Below are positions 1,791 to 14,897 of a DNA stretch of 64,000 bases, one piece after another. This DNA comes from Crenothrix polyspora (GTDB taxonomy: Bacteria; Pseudomonadota; Gammaproteobacteria; Methylococcales; Methylomonadaceae). The translations under genes and the position numbers were made by a program. How positions within the stretch are numbered: position 1 is the stretch's first letter; each line of letters starts with the position of its first letter. The stretch covers positions 1 to 64,000 of the forward strand of contig NZ_FUKI01000132.1 in NCBI RefSeq assembly GCF_900163755.1. Direction: 5' to 3'. The notes beneath the pieces were generated by a model. That model saw nothing but the letters and a program-made list of their open reading frames with translations, was not told the origin of the DNA and searched no databases.

Positions 1791-4784
1791 ATGAACAACG
1801 ACTTATTTATCTACGATACTGAGCGTTTTAAAAGCATTGCTTTAGACAATGTATTAGAACAGGGACTCTTTTGCTTTACAGAACATTGTGTAATTGCATT
1901 AAATAAACAAGATAATACGTTAATAGCGCAAGTACAAGAGACAAATAACCCGCACACCACACATCACGTAACCTTGTCCAAAGACACAGGCACTAAACTG
2001 AACTTTCAGTGTAGCTGCGATACCCCTAAAAATACCGCTTGTCAACATGCAATTGCCGCACTGCACAGCTATACCGCCTATGATAAACGCTACAAAAATC
2101 TAATCGACACAAGCGCAGCCGCTGCGGTACAAACCTGTATTGAGCAAGGTAATAATGAAGTCAGAACAAAATTAATCAGCGGCAATCTTGGTTTTGGTAC
2201 GTGGCAAGCAACCGCAACTACATTGGGTACACAAGGTTTAGAATCTTACCAAGTACACATTCGCAGCCTAACGAAGCCTTTTAATTATTGCACCTGCCCT
2301 GACCTTAACCTGTATCGCCTAGGTACGTGCAAACACATTGAAGCCGTGCTGCATTATGTACAAAGCAAACCCGACTATAACAATTATCTCGGCGCTGGTA
2401 TTCCTGTTTCCTTTGTCTATATGGCCTGGGAAAACAACAAACCCATTATGCGTTTACATGCACTGAGCAGCATGAGCGACAATCTGTCCAGTATTTGTGC
2501 GGGCTTTTTTGGCCCTAACAAAATTTTTAACGGTAATTTACCAGAAGATTTTTTTCGCTATACTCAGCAAGTACAAGGCAGAGACGACCTGCATATCGGT
2601 GAAGATGCCTTACAATATGCACAACAAAGCGCTAAAAATGCGGCTTACAAAGAGCGTGCTAAACAAATTAACGACGCTATTTTAAACACACACGGCGTAA
2701 TACCCGATATTAAAGCACGCCTACTGCCCTACCAAATTGACGGTGTGGCTTTTTTAGCCACGCACGGGCGAGCATTATTAGCCGACGATACCGGTTTGGG
2801 CAAAACGCTGCAAGCGATTACAGCGGCTTCTTGGCTGGTTAATCATGCCGCTATTAACAAAGTACTGATTGTTTGCCCAGCCTCTTTAACGTTTCAATGG
2901 GCACGAGAAATAAAAAAATTCACCGCCTATACCGTACAAATCATACAAGGTAACGCCGAACAAAGAGCCGTACAGTATCAATCTGATGCGCTATTTTTCA
3001 TTATTAATTATGAATTAGCCATGCGTGATATAACGCTTATCACTGACGACTTTAATGCAGATTTGCTGGTTGTCGATGAGCCGCAACGTACCAAAAACTG
3101 GCGCACCCGCATCACCCCAAAACTAAAACTCATACCCAGTCAATACGTGTTTGTGTTAAGCGGCATAATCGTCGAAAACCGGCTGGACGATCTATACAGT
3201 TTATTGCAACTGGTTGATCCGACAATACTCGCACCTTTTTGGCGCTACTTACTCGATTATCAAATTACCGATGAAACCGGCACAGTGCTGGGGTATCGCG
3301 ATTTAGCCCAATTACTGCACCGCATCGCACCGGTTATGCTACGGCGACAACACCAAACCGTCAGCACACAGTTACTGGAAAAAACTGAAGTCCGACTTGA
3401 TATTCCTCTGGATAAAAAACAACGCGAATTACATGACAGCGGGCTCTCTACTGCCAAGCAACTGGCACAGCTTGCCACACGTCGTACTTTAACCCCTGGC
3501 GAGCAACACCGCTTACTGGCGGCGCTGCAACAAGCACGGATGGCGTGCAATGCAGCAGGCTTAGTTGATAACGAAACACACGGCTCACCTAAATTACATG
3601 AGCTATCGTATTTACTGGAAGATCTCTGCCTACAAAACAACCATAAAACCGTTATTTTTTCGCAATGGGCAGTCATGACCGAAATGGTCGAAGCATTAAC
3701 ACGCCAAATAGGCTTATCGGCGGTACGCCTACACGGTGGTATGAGCAGTGACACACGTACTGACGCTATTAATCGTTTTAAAAATGATGACAGCGTGCAG
3801 GTACTTATTTCTACCGATGCGGGCAGTGTCGGCTTAAATTTAAAATCAGCTACTGTATTGATTAATTTGGATATGCCGTGGAATCCTGCCATTTTGGAGC
3901 AGCGTACAGCCTGCCTACACAGGCCAGGACAAAAAAACACCCTGCAAGTGTTTTTAATGCTGGCCGAAGATTCATACGAGCAGCAGGTCACTAAACTTGT
4001 TAAAAATAAACGGGATTTATTTGATAATGTTATCAGCCCAGAAACCTCCAAAGAGGTCGTAGGGGTTTCTAAAAAAATGTTGCAAACGCTGATTAATACA
4101 CTGATTAGTAATACTGCCGAGTCTAACAAACACCAAAATATAAAACCGTCACATGCGTTAGCAGCGTCAGATACTCAGCATAGCGACACAGGGCAATCAG
4201 AACCAGACCCTCAGCTTCAGCAACTGCTCACCAGTATGCAACTAGTATTTAAATACCGCTTACAATCCGTCGTCGGCTCACCCGAACAGATATTAGTTAT
4301 TGTTAATCCTATCCATAACAGCGACGAAGACACTGTGCGCCAACTATCGAAAGGTGTTGTGCCAATCGCCGTTGTTGACACTAAAACACTTAATAGCTTA
4401 AAGGGCTTAGAAGCCTGCTCTACACTGGCAACTTTGCCGGTATTGTATAAGCAAAGCCTTACCACAACAATCAACCCACTCACACAGATGGCTGAAGCTA
4501 AGCTGCATTCAGCTGAAACTTTACTGGCGCAACACTGTGTAGCAGGGGTGTTAGATTTAATCGCTTCCGCCATGCTCTTACAAGCAGCTGCTATAGCAGG
4601 GCAGTTTCAAGCACCCGCAATAGATACCGTAACCGTTTGGTTACATAACGAAATACTACCACAGCAATTACTCACACCCGCCCAAGCGGATGCCATTATC
4701 CGCGTGGTGTCTTTACTGCAAAGCCCAGATGTACCATTGAGTTTAATTGAGCAGGCTATTACAGACGCAAGATTATTCTGTTAA
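1791..4784 (+). CDS. SWIM zinc finger-containing SNF2-family helicase-like ATPase, with altered motifs
   Basis: 997 residues. Two SWIM-type zinc motifs come first: C-S-C...C-Q-H near residues 74-86 and C-T-C...C-K-H near 167-183. An SNF2/SWI2 motor follows, with Walker A DDTGLGKT (~332), motif II DEPQ (~429), motif III-like SGIIVENRL (~457) and a C-terminal lobe with STDAGSVGLNL and motif VI QRTACLHRPGQ (~703). Family members usually have DEAH or DEAQ, SGTPIEN, and Q-x4-R-x2-R-x-G-Q in motif VI. Here the Ala of DEAQ is Pro, TP is II, and the first arginine of motif VI is Cys. A poorly conserved tail of about 250 residues follows. The protein would act on DNA or protein-DNA complexes in the cytoplasm, but the motif changes suggest reduced or altered ATPase coupling. 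It stands alone, with no restriction or methylase partner. No clear Shine-Dalgarno precedes the ATG. Confidence 0.85.
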   Translation: MNNDLFIYDTERFKSIALDNVLEQGLFCFTEHCVIALNKQDNTLIAQVQETNNPHTTHHVTLSKDTGTKLNFQCSCDTPKNTACQHAIAALHSYTAYDKRYKNLIDTSAAAAVQTCIEQGNNEVRTKLISGNLGFGTWQATATTLGTQGLESYQVHIRSLTKPFNYCTCPDLNLYRLGTCKHIEAVLHYVQSKPDYNNYLGAGIPVSFVYMAWENNKPIMRLHALSSMSDNLSSICAGFFGPNKIFNGNLPEDFFRYTQQVQGRDDLHIGEDALQYAQQSAKNAAYKERAKQINDAILNTHGVIPDIKARLLPYQIDGVAFLATHGRALLADDTGLGKTLQAITAASWLVNHAAINKVLIVCPASLTFQWAREIKKFTAYTVQIIQGNAEQRAVQYQSDALFFIINYELAMRDITLITDDFNADLLVVDEPQRTKNWRTRITPKLKLIPSQYVFVLSGIIVENRLDDLYSLLQLVDPTILAPFWRYLLDYQITDETGTVLGYRDLAQLLHRIAPVMLRRQHQTVSTQLLEKTEVRLDIPLDKKQRELHDSGLSTAKQLAQLATRRTLTPGEQHRLLAALQQARMACNAAGLVDNETHGSPKLHELSYLLEDLCLQNNHKTVIFSQWAVMTEMVEALTRQIGLSAVRLHGGMSSDTRTDAINRFKNDDSVQVLISTDAGSVGLNLKSATVLINLDMPWNPAILEQRTACLHRPGQKNTLQVFLMLAEDSYEQQVTKLVKNKRDLFDNVISPETSKEVVGVSKKMLQTLINTLISNTAESNKHQNIKPSHALAASDTQHSDTGQSEPDPQLQQLLTSMQLVFKYRLQSVVGSPEQILVIVNPIHNSDEDTVRQLSKGVVPIAVVDTKTLNSLKGLEACSTLATLPVLYKQSLTTTINPLTQMAEAKLHSAETLLAQHCVAGVLDLIASAMLLQAAAIAGQFQAPAIDTVTVWLHNEILPQQLLTPAQADAIIRVVSLLQSPDVPLSLIEQAITDARLFC

Positions 4785-5044
4785 TGGTGCTACGATGAAA
4801 ACACTCTGCCGATAATTGTCACCTATTAACAAAAACAGTTCCCTGTTAGCAAGAAAACACGTTAATTTAAACCAACCCAAAACGCTAAACTACTAAAAAA
4901 AACAACTGTTGCTAAAAAATCAATACCACCTCAAAAAATTCGCACTAATAAAAATACAATACTTATCAAATAATTAAAATCAAAAATAAGATTTATTTTT
5001 CCAAAACAGCGATCATCTCAGCCAATTTAGCAAAAAACACAACA
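4785..5044. other. AT-rich intergenic stretch upstream of the PEP-CTERM gene
   Basis: About 260 bases of A/T-rich DNA after the SNF2-like gene. I see no coding frame of note and no terminator hairpin. If an activator-binding site for the sigma-54-like promoter at 5045 exists, it should lie here, but I could not identify one. Confidence 0.4.
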
Positions 5045-5060
5045 TGGCATGAATTATGCT
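5045..5060 (+). promoter_or_regulatory. putative sigma-54 (-24/-12) promoter
   Basis: TGGCATGAATTATGCT matches the sigma-54 consensus TGGCACGN4TTGCW at 9 of the 11 specified bases, ignoring the degenerate last position, which also fits. GG and GC are exactly ten bases apart, the spacing RpoN requires. It sits about 110 bp before the PEP-CTERM gene start. In PEP-CTERM/exosortase bacteria, such genes are known to be controlled by the PrsK/PrsR two-component system with RpoN, which makes this match more believable than its sequence alone would. Confidence 0.6.
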
Positions 5061-5117
5061 TTGTACATTTTTAAGAATATGGACTATCTGTCATTCACAT
5101 AGGTGTTTGACCATAAG

Positions 5118-5137
5118 AGTTCACGACACCGTGAACT
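5118..5137. promoter_or_regulatory. 8-4-8 perfect inverted repeat in the leader of the PEP-CTERM gene
   Basis: AGTTCACG-ACAC-CGTGAACT is a perfect eight-base palindrome with a four-base spacer. It ends about 31 bases before the ATG at 5169 and lies downstream of the sigma-54-like element. It could be an operator or, once transcribed, a leader hairpin. No T-run follows, so a simple terminator is unlikely. Confidence 0.45.
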
Positions 5138-5168
5138 GAGTTAACTACATTTTAAAATGGTATTTATT

Positions 5169-5906
5169 ATGAACAAAAAAATGCTTTTTCCCATTTTTTG
5201 CTCAGCAATGCTAGGATTTAGCACGGCTAACGCTGGCTACATTACTATTTCTGATACAACAGGCAATAATGTTATGAAAAATGCGTACAATTTGGATTCG
5301 GCGTTTAATAAAAACGCCGATAACACTATTGGCAAACCTAACAATGGCAAAGACACGAATATCTCTGAGTCTTTTTTTCATTCATCCGTCATTGCAATTA
5401 CTGAAAAAGATAACAGCAGTTTGGATTGGTATTCATTCAACGTCACCGCATCAAATAAAAATCCTATACAAGCCTATTTTGATATAGATCAAACCTCGTC
5501 TAGTCTGGATTCTTTTATAAAACTATATAACTCTTTTGAGAAGGAAATTGATTCTAATAACGATCACGAAGCAACCGATCCAGGCTCGCTTTATACCGGC
5601 ACCTTCAAGGCACATAATGGCAAGGATTCTTTTATAAGTTACACTTTTAAAGCCACAGGTTTGTATTATTTATCCATTGGCAATGCCGTTAACCCACCAA
5701 ATGATAAGCGCAATATCTTTTATCAAAATCCACTTAGCACCGGCCAAAACTACACTTTACATGTGTCGCTATCAGACAATATAGCCGTTAATAATCAACA
5801 ATCTAATGTGCCAACACCGCCTGCGACATTACTGTTTGGCTCAGGTCTTATAGGATTTATGGGCATGTATCGTCAGAAAATTTTCGCAACCACTTTAACA
5901 GCATAA
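5169..5906 (+). CDS. PEP-CTERM sorting-domain secreted protein
   Basis: A 245-residue secreted protein. The start is set at the ATG of MNKKMLFPIFCSAMLGF, which begins a typical signal peptide ending near TANAG; the four upstream in-frame codons add nothing. The middle resembles bacterial pre-peptidase C-terminal-like beta-sandwich domains (DSFIKLYNSF, then YTFKATGLYYLSIGN). The C-terminus carries a PEP-CTERM-type sorting signal: VPTPP, a hydrophobic helix (ATLLFGSGLIGFMGMY) and a basic cluster beginning RQK. The usual motif is VPEP, so the signal is slightly divergent, and nine residues follow RQK. Such proteins are cut by an exosortase and delivered to the envelope or matrix in exopolysaccharide-producing bacteria, consistent with the eps locus at 29-52 kb. 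No exosortase gene is in the window. A sigma-54-like promoter and a palindrome precede it. Confidence 0.82.
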   Translation: MNKKMLFPIFCSAMLGFSTANAGYITISDTTGNNVMKNAYNLDSAFNKNADNTIGKPNNGKDTNISESFFHSSVIAITEKDNSSLDWYSFNVTASNKNPIQAYFDIDQTSSSLDSFIKLYNSFEKEIDSNNDHEATDPGSLYTGTFKAHNGKDSFISYTFKATGLYYLSIGNAVNPPNDKRNIFYQNPLSTGQNYTLHVSLSDNIAVNNQQSNVPTPPATLLFGSGLIGFMGMYRQKIFATTLTA

Positions 5907-5917
5907 GTCTAAAACCA

Positions 5918-5945
5918 AATCGCCTTCGCTATAACGAGGGCGATT
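5918..5945. terminator. bidirectional terminator-like hairpin
   Basis: AATCGCCTTCG pairs with CGAGGGCGATT across a six-base loop, giving an 11-bp stem with one G-T pair. It lies between the convergent PEP-CTERM gene and ybdD. The T content after the stem is modest on both strands. Confidence 0.65.
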
Positions 5946-5958
5946 CTTAATTAAATCA

Positions 5959-6156
5959 TTAACAACAGCGTTTAACACCCGTCCATTTTTCATCTTGCCA
6001 TTGCTTAAAAAAATCCGCCTTAGTTAACGCGGGATGACAAGCGCCTTCCGCATGCCGCTGATGGTATTGTGCGTAATGCTGCAAATAACGTTCATACGCA
6101 TCATCGCCAGACAATTGGCGCACGGTTTGCCAAACGGCTTTGATTTTAACGTGCAT
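5959..6156 (-). CDS. ybdD: YbdD/YjiX family protein, partner of CstA
   Basis: A 65-residue protein with the family pattern: an N-terminal amphipathic stretch (WQTVRQLSGDDAYERYL), H-x2-H within YAQYHQRHAEG, and a tail ending in two cysteines. Its ATG overlaps the last base of the cstA stop codon (TAATG), so the two are translationally coupled. YbdD/YjiX proteins are found immediately downstream of CstA/BtsT transporters in many proteobacteria and are thought to act with them; their exact role is not settled. Length is normal for the family. Confidence 0.9.
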   Translation of the reverse strand: MHVKIKAVWQTVRQLSGDDAYERYLQHYAQYHQRHAEGACHPALTKADFFKQWQDEKWTGVKRCC

Positions 6157-8225
6157 TAATGCCCCACTTGCTCTTCAGCCAATTGTGTTAGCACATAAGG
6201 CGATTCTGTCAGCGGCAATACCGGCTTACCTGCCACGTAGCGCATACACATACGCAACATATCAAACACAATCAACCACAATAAGCAGATAAAAAACAGC
6301 GTAATACCGGCATCCAGATGCAGGTTAAAAATCAACTTCGGTGCAGCAGCGGCTTTGTCCACCGGCAATGTACCCAACGCCAGTTTATTGGCTAAATCAT
6401 TAGCCCCTGCTAAAAAGCCAATGCGCACATCGTCACTGAACAATTTTTGCCAGGCGGCGGTACTGGTGATAATCACCAGCCACAACAACGGTGTGCCGGT
6501 AATCCAGGCAAAGCGTAATTTACCCGATTTCACCAAAATACCGGTCGCCACCGACAAGGCAATCGCCGCCAACATCTGGTTGGCAATACCAAACAACGGC
6601 CACAAGATATTCACCCCACCGTTGGGGTCAATCACACCGATGTACAGAAAATAACCCCAGCCCATAACAACGATAGCACTGGTCAGCACCACCGACGGCA
6701 GCCACGAGGTTTCGCCCATTTTTGGCCAGATATTACCAAGCATATCCTGCAACATAAAACGCCCCACTCGCGTACCGGCATCCAGCGTAGTCAGGATAAA
6801 AATTGCCTCAAACATAATGGCAAAGTGATACCAAAGCGCCAGCATGCTTTCACCAAAGGCACTGCCAAAAATACTCGCCATGCCCACCGCTAATGAGGGC
6901 GCACCGCCGGTGCGGGCAAATAAGGTTGCCTCGCCCATTTGCCGTGCCAAGTTTTGCATTTGTTCAACCGTTACCGGATAACCCCAAGACGAAATTTTAG
7001 CTACGGCATCCGCCGCGTCTGCACCGACTATACCTGCCGAACTGTTGATGGCAAAAAACACACCCGGGTCTAAAACGGTCGCCGCCACCATCGCCATAAT
7101 GGCCACGAAAGATTCCAGTAACATGCCGCCGTAACCAATCATCACAATGTCGCGTTCGTTGCTGAGCAATTTCGGGGTCGTGCCCGATGCAATCAAGGCA
7201 TGAAAACCAGAAATCGCGCCGCAGGCGATAGTAATAAATACAAACGGAAACAACTTGCCGCCAAAGATCGGTCCCGTGCCATCAATAAACGGGGTAATGG
7301 CGGGCATTTTCACATCGGGCCTGAGTAAAATTATCGCCACCGCCAACAGGGTAATCGTGCCCAACTTCATGTAAGTCGATAAGTAATCACGCGGCGCTAA
7401 TAACAACCATACCGGAAATATCGCCGCCGCCAAACCGTAAGCCATCACCGCAAAGGCCAACGGTAAGCTATCGTGGTCAAACCAGCCGCGCAAACTTGGG
7501 TTGGTGTCTATCCAACCGCCAGCCCCCACTGACAGCAATAATAAAACCACCCCGATGAGGGATGCTTCCAATACACAACCTGGGCGCAAAAAACGCATAT
7601 AAATGCCGACCAACATGGCTATCGGTATGGTCGCTGACACAGTAAACGTCGCCCACGGGCTGTGCTTCATGGCATTCACCACCACCAAGCCCAATACCGC
7701 AATCAGGATAATCATAATGGTAAACGTGCCAATTAACGCCGCCGTACCACCAATGCGGCCAATCTCATCACGCGCCATTTGGCCAAGGCTTCGGGCATCG
7801 CGACGAGTGGATATAAACAAGGTAACCATGTCCTGCACGCAGCCGCCCAGCACTGCACCAAACAATATCCACAACGTGCCTGGTAAATAACCGAATTGCG
7901 CCGCCAGCGTAGGCCCAACCAGTGGGCCTGGTCCTGCAATGGCGGCAAAGTGGTGGCCAAACACCACCCATTTGTTGGTCGGCATAAAATCGCGACCATT
8001 ATCCAGGCGCTCAGCCGGTGTGGCGCGGGTGTCATCCACCATGAGTACCGTGGCGGCTATCCATGCCGCATAAAACCGGTACGCCAGTGCGTATACGCAC
8101 AAGGCGGCGGTGATAAACCACAACGCGTTAATGTGCTCACCGCGATTGAGCGCAATGCCGCCCACCGCTGCCGCACCTAAAATGGCTACTAATAGCCAGA
8201 TTGCATTTTTTGTTATGCTGTTCAT
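6156..8225 (-). CDS. cstA: CstA-family carbon starvation/peptide or pyruvate transporter
   Basis: 689 residues with many hydrophobic helices along the whole length (about 16). Family hallmarks include GHHFAAIAGPGPLVGPTLAA near residue 90, GCVQDMVTLFIS soon after, and SGFHALIASGTTPK in the middle. CstA/BtsT proteins import peptides or pyruvate across the inner membrane. It forms an operon with ybdD, and AGG lies 8 bases before the ATG. In a methanotroph-like host it might recover excreted organic acids, but that is inference. Full length, no damage seen. Confidence 0.95.
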   Translation of the reverse strand: MNSITKNAIWLLVAILGAAAVGGIALNRGEHINALWFITAALCVYALAYRFYAAWIAATVLMVDDTRATPAERLDNGRDFMPTNKWVVFGHHFAAIAGPGPLVGPTLAAQFGYLPGTLWILFGAVLGGCVQDMVTLFISTRRDARSLGQMARDEIGRIGGTAALIGTFTIMIILIAVLGLVVVNAMKHSPWATFTVSATIPIAMLVGIYMRFLRPGCVLEASLIGVVLLLLSVGAGGWIDTNPSLRGWFDHDSLPLAFAVMAYGLAAAIFPVWLLLAPRDYLSTYMKLGTITLLAVAIILLRPDVKMPAITPFIDGTGPIFGGKLFPFVFITIACGAISGFHALIASGTTPKLLSNERDIVMIGYGGMLLESFVAIMAMVAATVLDPGVFFAINSSAGIVGADAADAVAKISSWGYPVTVEQMQNLARQMGEATLFARTGGAPSLAVGMASIFGSAFGESMLALWYHFAIMFEAIFILTTLDAGTRVGRFMLQDMLGNIWPKMGETSWLPSVVLTSAIVVMGWGYFLYIGVIDPNGGVNILWPLFGIANQMLAAIALSVATGILVKSGKLRFAWITGTPLLWLVIITSTAAWQKLFSDDVRIGFLAGANDLANKLALGTLPVDKAAAAPKLIFNLHLDAGITLFFICLLWLIVFDMLRMCMRYVAGKPVLPLTESPYVLTQLAEEQVGH

Positions 8226-10057: not shown

Positions 10058-10822
10058 ATGATTGACTCGAAAAAAACAAAAAACTTTGGCTTAATTAGCA
10101 TTGTTGCGATTACGTTACTGTTAAATGGTTGTGCCGCAGTTCATACAACAATCGCTAAGAAAGATTTAGATGTGCAAACTAAAATGAGTGACACGGTTTT
10201 CTTAGATCCTGTCGGCCCTGATAAAAAGACTATTTATGTTGATATTAGAAACACATCGGATAAATCAAATTTTGATATTCTCAGTACGGTAAAAAGATCA
10301 TTAAGTACTAAAGGCTATACGATTACAACTGATCCTGATCGTGCGCATTATTGGTTGCGTGCTAACGTGTTAAGTGTTGACAAAGCCAGCCCAACAGCGG
10401 CAGAGTCGGCATTGCATGCAGGCTATGGCGGCGCTTTAGCAGGTGGTGCGGCAGGCGCGTTAACAGGTGCGGCGGTAAGTGGTGGTATTGGCGCGGCAGT
10501 TGGTGGCGGCGTTGGTATGCTGGTTGGTAGCGCTGTTGAACTTGTTGCTAACGCAGCGGTAAAAGACGTGACTTATATGGCAATTACAGATATTGAATTA
10601 TCAGAAAAAACAAAGCGCGGCGTGGTGGTCAGAAAAGACAGTCGACGAGATCACAAAAATGGTATCGGCGGTTCTAGCCGAGAAACTGATTCGGAAATCA
10701 AAAATACAAAACAATACCGCATTCGCGTTGTCAGTACCGCCAATAAAGTCAATTTAGACTATGCAGAAGCAGCACAGCCATTAACAGAAGGTTTGGCGCG
10801 ATCTATTTCTGGTTTGTTCTGA
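10058..10822 (+). CDS. traT: TraT-like outer-membrane lipoprotein (complement resistance family)
   Basis: 254 residues. The N-terminus is a lipoprotein signal with lipobox LLLNGC (Cys about residue 25). The rest follows TraT closely: KKDLDVQTKMSDTVFLDPV, IRNTSDKS, an alanine/glycine-rich hydrophobic segment (about residues 125-170) and AITDIELSEKTKRG. In F-like plasmids TraT blocks conjugation between donors and gives serum resistance; in environmental chromosomes the role is unknown, so the symbol marks homology only. Slightly longer than plasmid TraT owing to an extra serine/glycine-rich loop near residues 205-215. AGGAA precedes the ATG and a strong terminator follows. No other tra genes are present. 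Confidence 0.88.
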   Translation: MIDSKKTKNFGLISIVAITLLLNGCAAVHTTIAKKDLDVQTKMSDTVFLDPVGPDKKTIYVDIRNTSDKSNFDILSTVKRSLSTKGYTITTDPDRAHYWLRANVLSVDKASPTAAESALHAGYGGALAGGAAGALTGAAVSGGIGAAVGGGVGMLVGSAVELVANAAVKDVTYMAITDIELSEKTKRGVVVRKDSRRDHKNGIGGSSRETDSEIKNTKQYRIRVVSTANKVNLDYAEAAQPLTEGLARSISGLF

Positions 10823-11610: not shown

Positions 11611-11814
11611 TTATTCGGGATGAACGTTAACAGCCGTCAAGCCTTTTGGTCCTTTTTCACAATCAAAACGCACGTTTTGATTTTCTTCCAAAGTTTTGTA
11701 GCCATCACCTTGAATTACTGAATGATGTACGAATACATCAGCACTGCCATCAGAAGGTGAGATAAAACCAAAACCTTTGGTGTTATTGAACCATTTTACT
11801 TTGCCTGTTGCCAT
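11611..11814 (-). CDS. cspA: CspA-family cold-shock protein
   Basis: 67 residues with the complete cold-shock domain: [18 protein letters not shown] carries RNP1 (KGFGFI), then DVFVHHSVI (RNP2) and a [12 protein letters not shown] loop. It binds single-stranded RNA and DNA and melts mRNA structure. AGGAG is eight bases before the ATG. The 143 bases between it and the CBS gene upstream could include a cold-responsive leader, though I could not define a cold box. Which CspA paralogue this is cannot be told here. Confidence 0.95.
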
Positions 11815-11957: not shown

Positions 11958-12368
11958 TTATTGAAAAATTTTGTACAGCCCATCTAAAACCAAGGCATTC
12001 GGACTGACCATTCCTATCACGGTTTTATTATCTAATACCGGCGCTCGCACCAAATTATAGGTGGCAAAAAGCCTTGAACAATAACGAATATCCATATCAG
12101 GATGCACGGAAATAACCGGCTTAGTCATTATTTCATAAACATTAACCCGCTCTGGCGCACGGTCTTTGGCCAACACATGACGGGCAATATCACCCGAATT
12201 AATCAAGCCATATTCATCATCGTCATTGCGTTTATTAACCAATAATACCGAAGTTTTACAATTTTTCATTTTTTTTAAGGCATCCGCGACCGTGGCTATA
12301 CCGTCAATACTGACAAAATCGGTTTTCATGACATCACGAACGCGAATGACAATGCGTTGTTCACTCAT
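11958..12368 (-). CDS. CBS-domain pair protein, last gene of the DUF1538/PII operon
   Basis: 136 residues forming two CBS motifs: residues about 10-65 (VRDVMKTDFVSIDGIATVADALKKM written in part) and 75-130 (VYEIMTKPVISVHPDMDIRYC, APVLDNKTVIGMVS). Such Bateman modules bind adenine nucleotides and act as energy sensors. There is no other domain, so it would act on a partner. Its ATG overlaps the PII-like stop (ATGA), so it is translated with the PII-like protein and the two DUF1538 membrane proteins. A role in gating or sensing for the membrane proteins is inferred. Confidence 0.88.
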   Translation of the reverse strand: MSEQRIVIRVRDVMKTDFVSIDGIATVADALKKMKNCKTSVLLVNKRNDDDEYGLINSGDIARHVLAKDRAPERVNVYEIMTKPVISVHPDMDIRYCSRLFATYNLVRAPVLDNKTVIGMVSPNALVLDGLYKIFQ

Positions 12369-12715
12369 AGTTTATCCTCAAGTTCTTGGGTTAGTTCTTC
12401 TACCTGATGCCGAATGCCAATAGCATCTTCCACGTCAATTTGAAACGCAATGCCCGTACCGGGTTTATTATCAAATTCGGCAACGCGGGCAATTTCTTCC
12501 AATATATAGCGACTTAAACGCTCTTCAACTAAAAACAACAACACATCGCGCTGCGTTTCCAGCGTCAAGCCAAAAAAAGTTTTAGGCTGATTTAAGCCTT
12601 CACCACGGGCATTACTGACTACAGTCGCGCCTTTAGCGCCACATTTACGCGCTGTTTCCAGCACCAGATCGGTTTTATCATCTTCGACAAAAGCAATAAT
12701 CAACTTAAAATGCAC
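12365..12715 (-). CDS. PII-like signalling protein
   Basis: About 116 residues. The GTG at 12715 (then HFKLIIAFVEDD) is preferred because GAGG lies seven bases before it; the GTG at 12721 would sit only one base after GAGG. Ferredoxin-like PII fold features: strand-helix start (LIIAFVEDDKTDLVLETARKCGAKG), a shortened T-loop region (ARGEGLNQPKTFFG) and a C-terminal KPGTGIAFQIDVEDAIGI that replaces the classic GDGKIFV-type strand. The T-loop tyrosine uridylylation motif of GlnB is absent. PII-like proteins usually bind nucleotides and plug or tune a transporter. Here it is coupled to two DUF1538 membrane genes upstream and a CBS gene downstream. Confidence 0.85.
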   Translation of the reverse strand: MHFKLIIAFVEDDKTDLVLETARKCGAKGATVVSNARGEGLNQPKTFFGLTLETQRDVLLFLVEERLSRYILEEIARVAEFDNKPGTGIAFQIDVEDAIGIRHQVEELTQELEDKL

Positions 12716-12733
12716 ACACACCTCACACTAAAA

Positions 12734-13495
12734 TCAACGACGACGGTTATTGCGCCACTGGGCAATTTGGGCATAAGCCAACACCGTTATAATAGGAAAC
12801 AAACTGGCAAAAGCGATCAGACCAAAGCCATCAATTAACGGATTGCGCCCTGGAATCGCTTGCGCCAAACCTAAGCCCAGCGCTGTCACCAAGGGCACAG
12901 TCACCGTGGACGTAGTGACACCGCCAGAATCATACGCCAAACCAATCATTAATTTGGGAGAAAATGCCGTTTGAATGATGACTATGATATAACCAACAAC
13001 AATAAAATAATACAGCTCAAATCCGCTCACAATACGGAACACCCCCAAGGCAATGCCAAAAGCCACACCGATGGACACCGCACAACGCAAACCAAAGGCG
13101 CGGATTGCCCCCCCAGAAATTTGCTCGGCTTTAATGGCCACCGCCAACAAAGACGGCTCAGCAAACGTGGTGGCAAAACCAATGCTGGCAGCAAATACGT
13201 ATACCCAACCATACGACAGCCAATTTGCTAGCTTAAGATCAGCTACCCCCAAAAACGCCGGCGTGGTTAATTGCTTGGCCATTAACTTACCCAGCGGAAA
13301 TAACGCCATCTCCAGGCCTTCCAAAAAAAAAGCCACTCCCAGCAAAATACAAACAAAACCCAGCAGTATTTTTTTAGGGTGTGCCATTGGCTTGCGGATA
13401 ATCAACACCTGAAAACCAATGATAATAGCGGCTATAGGCAAAATATCTCGACACGTTGCCAACAAACCCGTCATAAAATGCACAATGCTAACCAT
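12734..13495 (-). CDS. DUF1538 integral membrane protein (second copy)
   Basis: 253 residues with about seven hydrophobic helices. The core [20 protein letters not shown] plus GLGLAQAIPGRNPLIDGFGLIAFASLFP is the DUF1538 hallmark and is almost the same in the upstream gene. The ATG at 13495 shares one base with the upstream TGA (TGATG); a GTG one codon earlier is possible. DUF1538 has no settled function in my knowledge. The paired copies plus PII-like and CBS proteins point to a regulated transporter, probably an inverted-topology or heteromeric pair. C-terminus is basic (RNNRRR). Confidence 0.9.
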   Translation of the reverse strand: MVSIVHFMTGLLATCRDILPIAAIIIGFQVLIIRKPMAHPKKILLGFVCILLGVAFFLEGLEMALFPLGKLMAKQLTTPAFLGVADLKLANWLSYGWVYVFAASIGFATTFAEPSLLAVAIKAEQISGGAIRAFGLRCAVSIGVAFGIALGVFRIVSGFELYYFIVVGYIIVIIQTAFSPKLMIGLAYDSGGVTTSTVTVPLVTALGLGLAQAIPGRNPLIDGFGLIAFASLFPIITVLAYAQIAQWRNNRRR

Positions 13496-14223
13496 CACCG
13501 GAGCATCCCATAAGCCATAACAAAAATCATGGGGGTTAATGACGCTAAGGCAATTAAACCAAAACCATCTAACATAGGGTTGCGACCTTTAATGGCAGAA
13601 GCCAAACCCACACCCAAGGCAGTCACCAATGGCACAGTAATGGTGGAGGTGGTAACACCGCCCGAATCGTAAGCAATGCCAACAATCTCCGCAGGTGCAA
13701 ACGGTGTCATAATAATGACGGCACAATAACCGCCAATAATTAAATAATACAACGACCAGCCGCGCAATATACGCAGCACACCAATTAAAATGGCAAAACC
13801 AACCGACAGCGCCACGGTAATCCGCAATCCTAAGGCATACTGGCTTCGAGCAACATCAGTTTGTGCAATTAAATGGCTTTTACTGGTAACGTTAGCCGCT
13901 TCTTCTGCGACCGCTACCAGTGCCGGTTCGGCAACGGTTGTGCCAAAACCCAGGCAAAAAGCAAACAGTAACAACCAAAACACACTGCCTTTACGGGCAA
14001 AAGCATGAGCCATGCTCTCACCAATCGGAAATAAACTTTGCTCCAGTCCGTAAACAAACAAGGTCAGCCCTAAAATAACTTGCAAAACCCCAACCACCAT
14101 ACCCACCACATCAGGAATCGGCTGTCTAATAATAAAAATCTGAAATACCAGTACTACAACAAGAATAGGTAGTAAACTTAAAAAACTACTGATCAGTTGC
14201 TTAATAAAACCGTGTTTTAGCAT
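13495..14223 (-). CDS. DUF1538 integral membrane protein (first copy), head of the operon
   Basis: 242 residues from the ATG at 14223, which has GGA six bases ahead; an upstream TTG at 14241 is less likely. About seven membrane helices. It has [20 protein letters not shown] and [26 protein letters not shown], matching the next gene block for block, and [21 protein letters not shown], whose equivalent in the next gene is ASIGFATTFAEPSLLAVAIKA. The two are homologous copies from an old duplication kept side by side. An insertion around residues 120-135 ([18 protein letters not shown]) is absent from the second copy. Membrane transport is inferred, substrate unknown. Confidence 0.9.
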
Positions 14224-14525
14224 AAAGCATCCAATAAACAATATTTTTAGATAACTGTCGTTTTATTCTGCAAAAAAACACCCCTAACAGCAACATAAAA
14301 ACTTTATCAAAAATTTCCATGCGTATTTTACGTTTATGGCTAATGCTTTCCAGAATAGATTATTTTTTTTAAAACCGGCTATAATGAGCCGTACGTAAGC
14401 TATCGCTTAGATAATACACGCTGAAAGCATACACTTTTTACACAGCTGAAAAATATCGACTGACATCCAGCTCTAGCCAGCAAATATTTGCAAAATAATC
14501 CAACACAACACTGGGGATACACACC
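14224..14525. other. divergent promoter region between DUF1538 operon and roadblock gene
   Basis: About 300 bases. It contains a perfect TATAAT at 14380-14385 on the plus strand, about 134 bases before the rightward roadblock gene start, after a run of T and A. A matching -35 is poor (AGATTA at 17-base spacing). Otherwise nothing recognised. Confidence 0.4.
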
Positions 14526-14897
14526 ATGCGCGCCGACCTATTAACTTCCATTTTATCCGAACTCAATGGCACTTCTGCCGATATCGAAGCATCAGGGGTT
14601 ATTTCAACCGATGGCTTAATGATGGCATCGGTATTACCGGCAGGCTTAGATGAAGATAGAATAGGCGCAATGAGCGCTGCCATGCTATCACTGGGTGATA
14701 GAACAGCTCAGGAATTAATGCGCGGTAACTTAGAGCAGGTACTTATTAAGGGTGCCAAAGGCTATGTGTTAATGGTATATGCCGGTGATGAAGCCGTTTT
14801 AACCGTTATCGCTAAACAAAACTCAAAATTAGGTCTGATTTTCCTGGATGTTAAACGTGCAGCAGAAAGCATTTCTGAATTACTGCATCCATCTTGA
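14526..14897 (+). CDS. roadblock/LC7 domain protein (MglB-like)
   Basis: 123 residues, one roadblock/LC7 domain throughout: LLTSILSELNGTSADIEASGVISTDGLMMAS (in part), then GAMSAAMLSLGDRTAQEL and a C-terminal helix (DVKRAAESISELL). Roadblock proteins dimerise and partner Ras-like GTPases; in Myxococcus MglB is the GAP for MglA. GGGG lies nine bases before the ATG. It lies 12.7 kb from an MglA-like GTPase and a second roadblock-like protein, with the Chp-like chemosensory genes in between. A partner role for that GTPase is inferred. Confidence 0.88.
   Translation: MRADLLTSILSELNGTSADIEASGVISTDGLMMASVLPAGLDEDRIGAMSAAMLSLGDRTAQELMRGNLEQVLIKGAKGYVLMVYAGDEAVLTVIAKQNSKLGLIFLDVKRAAESISELLHPS

Follow-up and report, generated by a model that had tools for sequence, protein, structure and literature searches.

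In carbon and nitrogen metabolism, PII proteins act as central switches, and nucleotide-linked control of cation/proton antiport is known from the CPA2 (Kef-type) antiporters with TrkA/RCK domains. The locus described here is a four-gene operon on the minus strand, at positions 11958-14223 of a 64,000-nucleotide stretch of Crenothrix polyspora DNA (contig NZ_FUKI01000132.1, positions 1 to 64,000; referred to below as the window), which encodes two homologous DUF1538 membrane proteins, a PII-like protein and a free-standing pair of CBS domains. With a probability of roughly 0.6, it is an UmpAB-type alkali-cation/proton antiporter operon that is gated by a dedicated PII protein and an adenylate-type CBS sensor.

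For the membrane pair a function has already been published, namely the cation/proton antiport of its homologue UmpAB. The DUF1538 pair of Halomonas zhaodongensis was reported by Meng et al. 2017 (PMC5484666) to be a Na+(Li+,K+)/H+ antiporter, with antiport followed in vesicle assays, its pH dependence and K0.5 values given, and a heterodimer demonstrated by co-immunoprecipitation. The 4.2-kb Halomonas clone is described there as carrying umpAB together with an MFS gene and an incomplete gene for a citrate transporter, and the terms "PII," "P-II" and "CBS" never occur in the main text. Given that report, the statement in an earlier note on this DNA that both function and substrate were unknown no longer holds. 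A bicarbonate transporter, hinted at in the same note by analogy with SbtA-SbtB, was likewise rejected, since the published activity is cation/proton antiport and no neighbor or sequence evidence in its favor was seen.

The window resembles the Halomonas system in having two homologous, overlapping DUF1538 genes whose best NCBIfam matches are the UmpA and UmpB models (NF041627/NF041628). It differs in that the scores, 360.8 bits for the UmpA-like protein (curated cut-off 490) and 319.7 bits for the UmpB-like protein (curated cut-off 500), lie below those cut-offs, and in that PII and CBS are absent from the main text of the Halomonas paper. Because of these scores the pair is regarded as an UmpAB homologue rather than as a strict equivalog. 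Four split UmpA relatives, including those from Vibrio and Sedimenticola, also fall under the UmpA cut-off at 293-386 bits. The features of the operon are as follows.

13495..14223, minus strand: UmpA-like DUF1538 membrane subunit, 242 residues from the ATG at 14223 (PF07556, 234.1 bits)
12734..13498, minus strand: UmpB-like DUF1538 membrane subunit, 254 residues (PF07556, 222.3 bits)
12365..12721, minus strand: PII-like protein, 118 residues, or 116 from the probable GTG at 12715 (PF00543, 43.7 bits)
12548..12610, minus strand: residues 38-58 of the PII-like protein, its T-loop; KTFFGL occupies 12566-12583 (supported by the confidence scores of the structural model)
12449..12466, minus strand: residues 86-91 of the PII-like protein, its B-loop, reading KPGTGI (from the alignment with relatives)
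11958..12368, minus strand: free-standing CBS-domain pair, 136 residues (PF00571, 68.3 bits over two stretches)

The four-gene tandem is confirmed in the window sequence. As the earlier note had read it, four leftward open reading frames touch one another, the umpB start overlapping the umpA stop as TGATG and the CBS start overlapping the PII stop as ATGA; its descriptions of two homologous membrane proteins, a PII-like protein with a T-loop unlike that of GlnB, and a bare CBS pair also stand. The spacing of about 18 bases that it gave between UmpB and PII holds with GTG 12715 as the PII start, and shrinks to 12 with GTG 12721; the former is probably correct because the relatives begin MHFKLII. 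The UmpA-like reading frame itself extends over 13495-14241 with an in-frame TTG at 14241, and the ATG at 14223 is a plausible start. All four products lie well above the Pfam gathering cut-offs (22.6 bits for DUF1538, 25 for P-II and 24 for CBS), and the membrane subunits match DUF1538 only.

Several described systems pair a PII protein with a transporter. In AmtB-GlnK, as in the window, a PII gene accompanies a transporter gene, and the T-loop plug of that complex serves as a model; the window's PII branch, however, is without R38, K58, K90 and R101, and has almost always lost Q39, Y51 and R103. Some SbtB members carry the C-terminal motif CGPxGC. In the SbtA-SbtB system the SbtB T-loop enters the transporter cleft from the cytoplasm (PMC8352866). 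The window shares with that system a transporter with a co-operonic PII-like protein, the fold of which is close to SbtB, but SbtA is a trimer, the window PII ends in a long helix lacking CGPxGC, its neighbor is DUF1538 rather than sbtA, and a CBS pair is added. The PII-NG proteins are also clustered with a proton/cation antiporter, in their case CzcABC (PMC7726332), which is a divalent-metal pump encoded without DUF1538; judged on its neighbors, DUF1538 and CBS, rather than on its sequence clade, the window protein does not belong to that group. Unlike CBS-CP12, the CBS protein of the window is a free pair without a CP12 domain and lies in an antiporter operon. In the CPA2 antiporters, finally, the TrkA domains that bind nucleotides belong to the same polypeptide as the transporter, whereas UmpA and UmpB consist of DUF1538 only; the link between the two systems is that a paralogue of the window PII adjoins a CPA2-type gene.

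Gene order and co-occurrence

Conservation of the gene order was assessed at loci where the sequence runs on for 400 bases or more past UmpB, drawn from 29 loci of the window's own family (2 too short), the best-scoring loci of a phylum sample, and 80 named loci (5 too short) that were the best of 581 relatives. PII follows UmpB in 27/27, 29/29 and 74/75 of these, respectively, although the sampled genomes are related and the counts are therefore not independent events. The CBS gene comes right after PII in 27/27 family loci, 10/13 of the phylum sample and all 73 of the named loci with room for it. One of the named loci, L064 from the methanotroph Methylobacter tundripaludum, has the complete set of four. 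No record named Halomonas is found among the 80 closest named loci. With the order recurring in nearly every readable DUF1538 locus, the gene association is far beyond chance. The earlier note had made its proposal depend on DUF1538 pairs not standing mostly alone; PII does adjoin them almost everywhere, and CBS is partly absent.

The same association is seen when whole genomes are compared. Among 151 family genomes, which the nearest named loci suggest are Methylococcaceae-type methanotrophs, 95 have DUF1538 over the cut-off, 94 match the PII-branch profile and 94 the CBS profile, and these are the same genomes: DUF1538 and PII occur together in 94, DUF1538 alone in one and PII alone in none. 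In the single exception (G063, with neither PII nor CBS) the contig ends inside UmpB. In the 398-genome phylum sample, for which the lists were compared by hand and a PII threshold of 1e-8 was applied, DUF1538 and PII are found together in 120. Five genomes (G322, G368, G386, G395, G431) have DUF1538 over the cut-off without PII, a sixth (G422) also lacks PII but is below the DUF1538 cut-off, and eight (G172, G267, G279, G295, G331, G406, G409, G461) have PII without DUF1538, the matches in G406, G409 and G461 being weak.

The association extends to divergent loci and other phyla. PII lies next to DUF1538 in 18 of 20 regions picked for divergence, fused DUF1538 or unusual families, all but L180 and L181, and fused UmpAB proteins, too, have PII as the next gene. 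In the Nitrospirota, DUF1538 is present in 5/118 genomes, and all four loci inspected read UmpA-UmpB-PII-CBS. Nine records of a plasmid collection match DUF1538; the seven inspected, from Clostridia and Alphaproteobacteria, all have PII directly downstream, five by annotation and two by profile. In the Clostridia (Vescimonas, Peptoclostridium, Paraclostridium, Acetoanaerobium and Subdoligranulum) the gene after a fused DUF1538 pair encodes a product of some 220 residues or more that contains two PII stretches, detected by Pfam in 2/5 and by the branch profile in 5/5, the first stretch in Vescimonas being a very weak match to that profile. In Methylocystis and Chelativorans the DUF1538 genes are split and accompanied by PII, the first DUF1538 gene being short in Chelativorans. 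The PII-DUF1538 association is thus found in at least three bacterial phyla.

Variant arrangements were also encountered. In locus L182 of genome G288 (3496-7687), one strand carries in succession a fused UmpAB, PII, CBS, another PII gene and the separate genes of an UmpA-UmpB pair, such that two DUF1538 pairs share the single CBS gene between them. The Nitrospirota search yielded a locus with three tandem DUF1538 genes followed by PII and CBS (L257:3272-6264). In L212 (3767-5461) the gene directly upstream of UmpA specifies a K+-channel-like protein with Ion_trans and TrkA domains, and a protein with similar domains is encoded upstream in L078 (2330-3934), as part of a cluster that was seen in 5/80 named loci.

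The PII-like protein, its paralogue and the CBS pair

The AlphaFold2 (AF2) model of the PII-like protein, with a mean predicted local distance difference test score (pLDDT) of 77.7, displays the PII fold, its C-terminus forming a long helix. T-loop residues 39-54 fall below a pLDDT of 50. The best structural match is 1ufl_B (Z 11.5 over 88 residues, root-mean-square deviation 4.6), and the closest folds are those of CPII, SbtB and GlnK/GlnB, the SbtB and CPII structures having been solved with AMP, ADP or ATP. Together with a PF00543 score of 43.7 bits against a cut-off of 25, the fold places the protein in the PII superfamily. A T-loop signature, [KR]T[FL][FLM]G[LMF], is present in 71/73 of the named UmpAB-linked PII relatives.

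Residues R38, Q39, Tyr51, K58, K90, R101 and R103 are functional positions of GlnB and GlnK. They were checked in 64 intact PII relatives by alignment with the GlnB and GlnK that the source genome itself encodes, a set of relatives from which a canonical GlnB in the flank of L074 and three fragments were left out. R38, K58, K90 and R101 are retained in 0/64 and Q39 in 4/64, the Lys 90 position being occupied by isoleucine or methionine in all 64; Tyr 51 is almost always absent from the branch, and the R103 position is mostly methionine, alanine or serine, although the window protein has arginine. The protein is accordingly no GlnB or GlnK. The equivalents of T29, G35, G37, G87 and G89, among them both B-loop glycines, are retained in 64/64. 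Because most of the canonical ligand residues are lost, sensing of MgATP and 2-oxoglutarate in the manner of GlnB is unlikely; an AMP- or ADP-like ligand is possible, as judged from the sequences. Cyclic di-AMP was rejected as a ligand, and is unlikely here, because no DAC (c-di-AMP synthase) domain was found in the source genome; the domain is also absent from 149/151 family genomes, and one of the two that have it (G128, a weak match) carries DUF1538.

A second, more distant PII of the same branch occurs in nine family genomes (L198-L206). In eight of the nine it lies 10-355 bases from a gene for a protein of 657-660 residues with Na_H_Exchanger, TrkA_N and TrkA_C domains, the domain make-up of Kef-type CPA2 antiporters. 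The arrangement is not fixed: PII is upstream of the exchanger gene in L198, L204, L205 and L206, downstream in L200, L202 and L203, and convergent with it in L201. In L199 the neighbors are instead genes for an IS110 transposase and a tRNA-guanine transglycosylase. In a tree built from 117 columns, much of whose topology is soft, eight second copies form one clade (100/100), L205 being left out, and this clade sits inside a set of 33 rows (96/90) composed of 24 UmpAB-linked proteins, the 8 second copies and one other. The T-loop of the second copies reads KV(V/F/I)GI(F/L)G(L/F)EIL versus KTFFGLTLE in the UmpAB-linked type, and the UmpAB-type signature is found in 0/9 of them. If PII docks directly, a different T-loop would be expected with a different transporter, as is seen here. 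Judging from its sequence and setting, the CPA2-linked paralogue is an independent pointer to cation/proton antiport.

CBS-CP12 is an AMP-binding protein. It is also the nearest solved relative of the CBS pair in the window (PDB 5nmu, E 3.3e-25), which has two CBS repeats and scores well over the PF00571 cut-off (68.3 versus 24 bits). From the distribution of the genes, CBS appears to be a lineage-dependent second sensor, with a second PII domain in its place in the Clostridia. A further candidate for such a replacement is found in a divergent fused group. In L171 the gene after PII encodes a second PII (Pfam 25.7 bits, cut-off 25), and in its sister genomes the corresponding gene is only weakly PII-like by profile comparison (12% probability, rising to 63% with bridging members); the second small protein of this clade gave no CBS match.

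Proposed gating and its rivals

The following model, patterned on SbtA-SbtB, is proposed. The PII-like protein, which its fold predicts to be a trimer, would use its KTFFGL T-loop to dock on UmpAB from the cytoplasmic side, and thereby plug or lock the antiporter such that exchange is slowed or stopped. A change in its ligand state would release it. The CBS pair would act as a second adenylate-type sensor (AMP/ADP/ATP) on either PII or the antiporter, a role that a second PII domain may assume in some other lineages. Cation/proton exchange, and hence cytoplasmic pH and Na+/K+, would then be governed by the cell's adenylate state. Since UmpAB is reported to be a heterodimer, a trimeric PII would require either a trimer of heterodimers or a departure from the rule that PII acts on trimers only.

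The novel part is the regulation. Gene order and co-occurrence give good support to the PII-UmpAB module as a variant of the PII-transporter theme, and a survey of full-text literature, mostly outside subscription journals, yielded no statement of PII or CBS partnering UmpAB, although an earlier mention is possible. Of the self-contained module envisaged in the earlier note, the part that survives is the conserved union of PII with the membrane pair, the CBS gene being present in many lineages and not in all. Its two nucleotide sensors fare less well, in that CBS is absent or replaced in several lineages and PII has lost most of its ATP-phosphate and 2-oxoglutarate residues.

Several observations weigh against an antiporter gated by both sensors. 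Both membrane subunits score under the curated cut-offs, as noted above. UmpAB pairs without an adjoining PII were found in L132, L180 and L181, the first being a Magnetococcales pair in G551 (the same genome as G243) with its PII elsewhere (L217). With respect to the CBS pair, seven of eight regions chosen for a missing or uncertain CBS have PII without it (G262, G535, G160, G156, G323, G199 and G164; CBS is present in G362), the ribose-type motif is present in 49/73 relatives for CBS1 and 25/73 for CBS2, and the CBS2 of the window is without the aspartate of that motif. All eight cases of PII next to a CPA2-type gene come from the window's own family. Related PII genes adjoin other partners, namely dihydrouridine synthase (L213, L216 and L226, and L222 by gene sizes), ETF-QO (L211, and L221 by gene sizes) and mutS (L223). 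Near the PII linked to dihydrouridine synthase lie an NtrC-like gene (L213 and L216) and a gene for a histidine kinase (L213), and no antiporter was seen among the annotated neighbors of any of these three groups. The remaining points concern the transport activity and the rivals discussed below.

The best surviving of these, which is nevertheless unlikely, is that PII and CBS do regulate the transporter, the true substrate of which is no alkali cation, antiport being a side effect of over-expression in Escherichia coli KNabc. The antiport of UmpAB comes from one paper and one heterologous screen in that strain, which yielded several genes not previously known as antiporters (PMC5484666), and antiport has been claimed in other papers for the unrelated UPF0118, RDD, MFS and CDF proteins. 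Nor does UmpA have a recognizable relative among solved structures. Its AF2 model is all-helical with a pLDDT of 89.3, and the best matches, at E 0.82 with Foldseek and at Z 5.7 over 121 residues (root-mean-square deviation 4.0) with VIA, are not convincing; the NhaA, CPA and SbtA folds were not among the matches listed by either program, though UmpA may still have one of them, and comparison of the UmpA/UmpB profile with solved chains reached E 0.36 at best, for a fusion protein. Set against this are the vesicle antiport, pH dependence and K0.5 values in the same paper, the Na+/H+ exchanger-family gene beside the second PII copies in 8/9 genomes, and the listing of DUF1538 among published pH-adaptation families (PMC13255231).

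More doubtful is direct sensing of a cation, bicarbonate or pH, rather than of an adenylate, by the PII-like protein in feedback on the antiporter. The loss of most canonical ATP-phosphate and 2-oxoglutarate ligands would suit this, as would the proposal that the PII-NG proteins clustered with CzcABC are metal sensors (PMC7726332). The nucleotide-cleft glycines and the T29 equivalent are retained throughout the 64 relatives, however, and the closest folds include the nucleotide-bound SbtB and CPII structures.

Least probable is a co-expressed soluble pair, PII and CBS, that makes no contact with the antiporter and acts on metabolic enzymes: in three genomes (G266, which is that of L181, G234 and G306) a PII-CBS pair on a contig other than that of DUF1538 adjoins a malic-enzyme and/or phosphotransacetylase-domain gene (L218, L219 and L220, with the phosphotransacetylase part alone on the contig in L219), and other branch members adjoin ETF-QO or dihydrouridine synthase genes, but DUF1538 co-occurs almost completely with PII even when unlinked, PII and not CBS keeps beside DUF1538 in three phyla, and the T-loop varies with the partner gene.

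If PII gating of UmpAB is correct, metabolic state would be linked to ion and pH balance through direct protein contact. This suggests that salt and acid balance in the cell depend on an internal signal by way of a PII switch, which is not known to control transporters of this kind. A function would also be provided for proteins named "P-II family nitrogen regulator," as the products of this branch are annotated in the plasmid-collection records, and that function is perhaps unrelated to nitrogen. A wider proposal, put forward tentatively and at somewhat less than even odds, is that the branch is a dedicated regulator serving two unrelated antiporter families, DUF1538 and, through the T-loop-switched paralogue, the CPA2 type, in three phyla or more, and that it works with a second sensor of interchangeable kind and on transporters that are not simple trimers. 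It would break the present rule that trimeric transporters are the only ones under PII control and would turn pH and cation homeostasis into a direct output of PII.

Flanking genes

Riboswitch control of the operon was rejected, since an Rfam scan of the window gave no match and those of 14 related loci gave tRNA only. The nadC, ampD and ampE-like genes by some gammaproteobacterial loci were considered as extra operon members and set aside; they look like shared position, not function. The neighbors of the operon in the window are listed below.

11611-11814, minus strand: cold-shock gene, downstream of the CBS gene across a gap
14526-14897, divergent from the operon: Roadblock/LC7 gene, directly upstream of the UmpA-like gene

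A TraT-family protein is encoded near the operon at 10058-10822 (PF05818, 260 bits).

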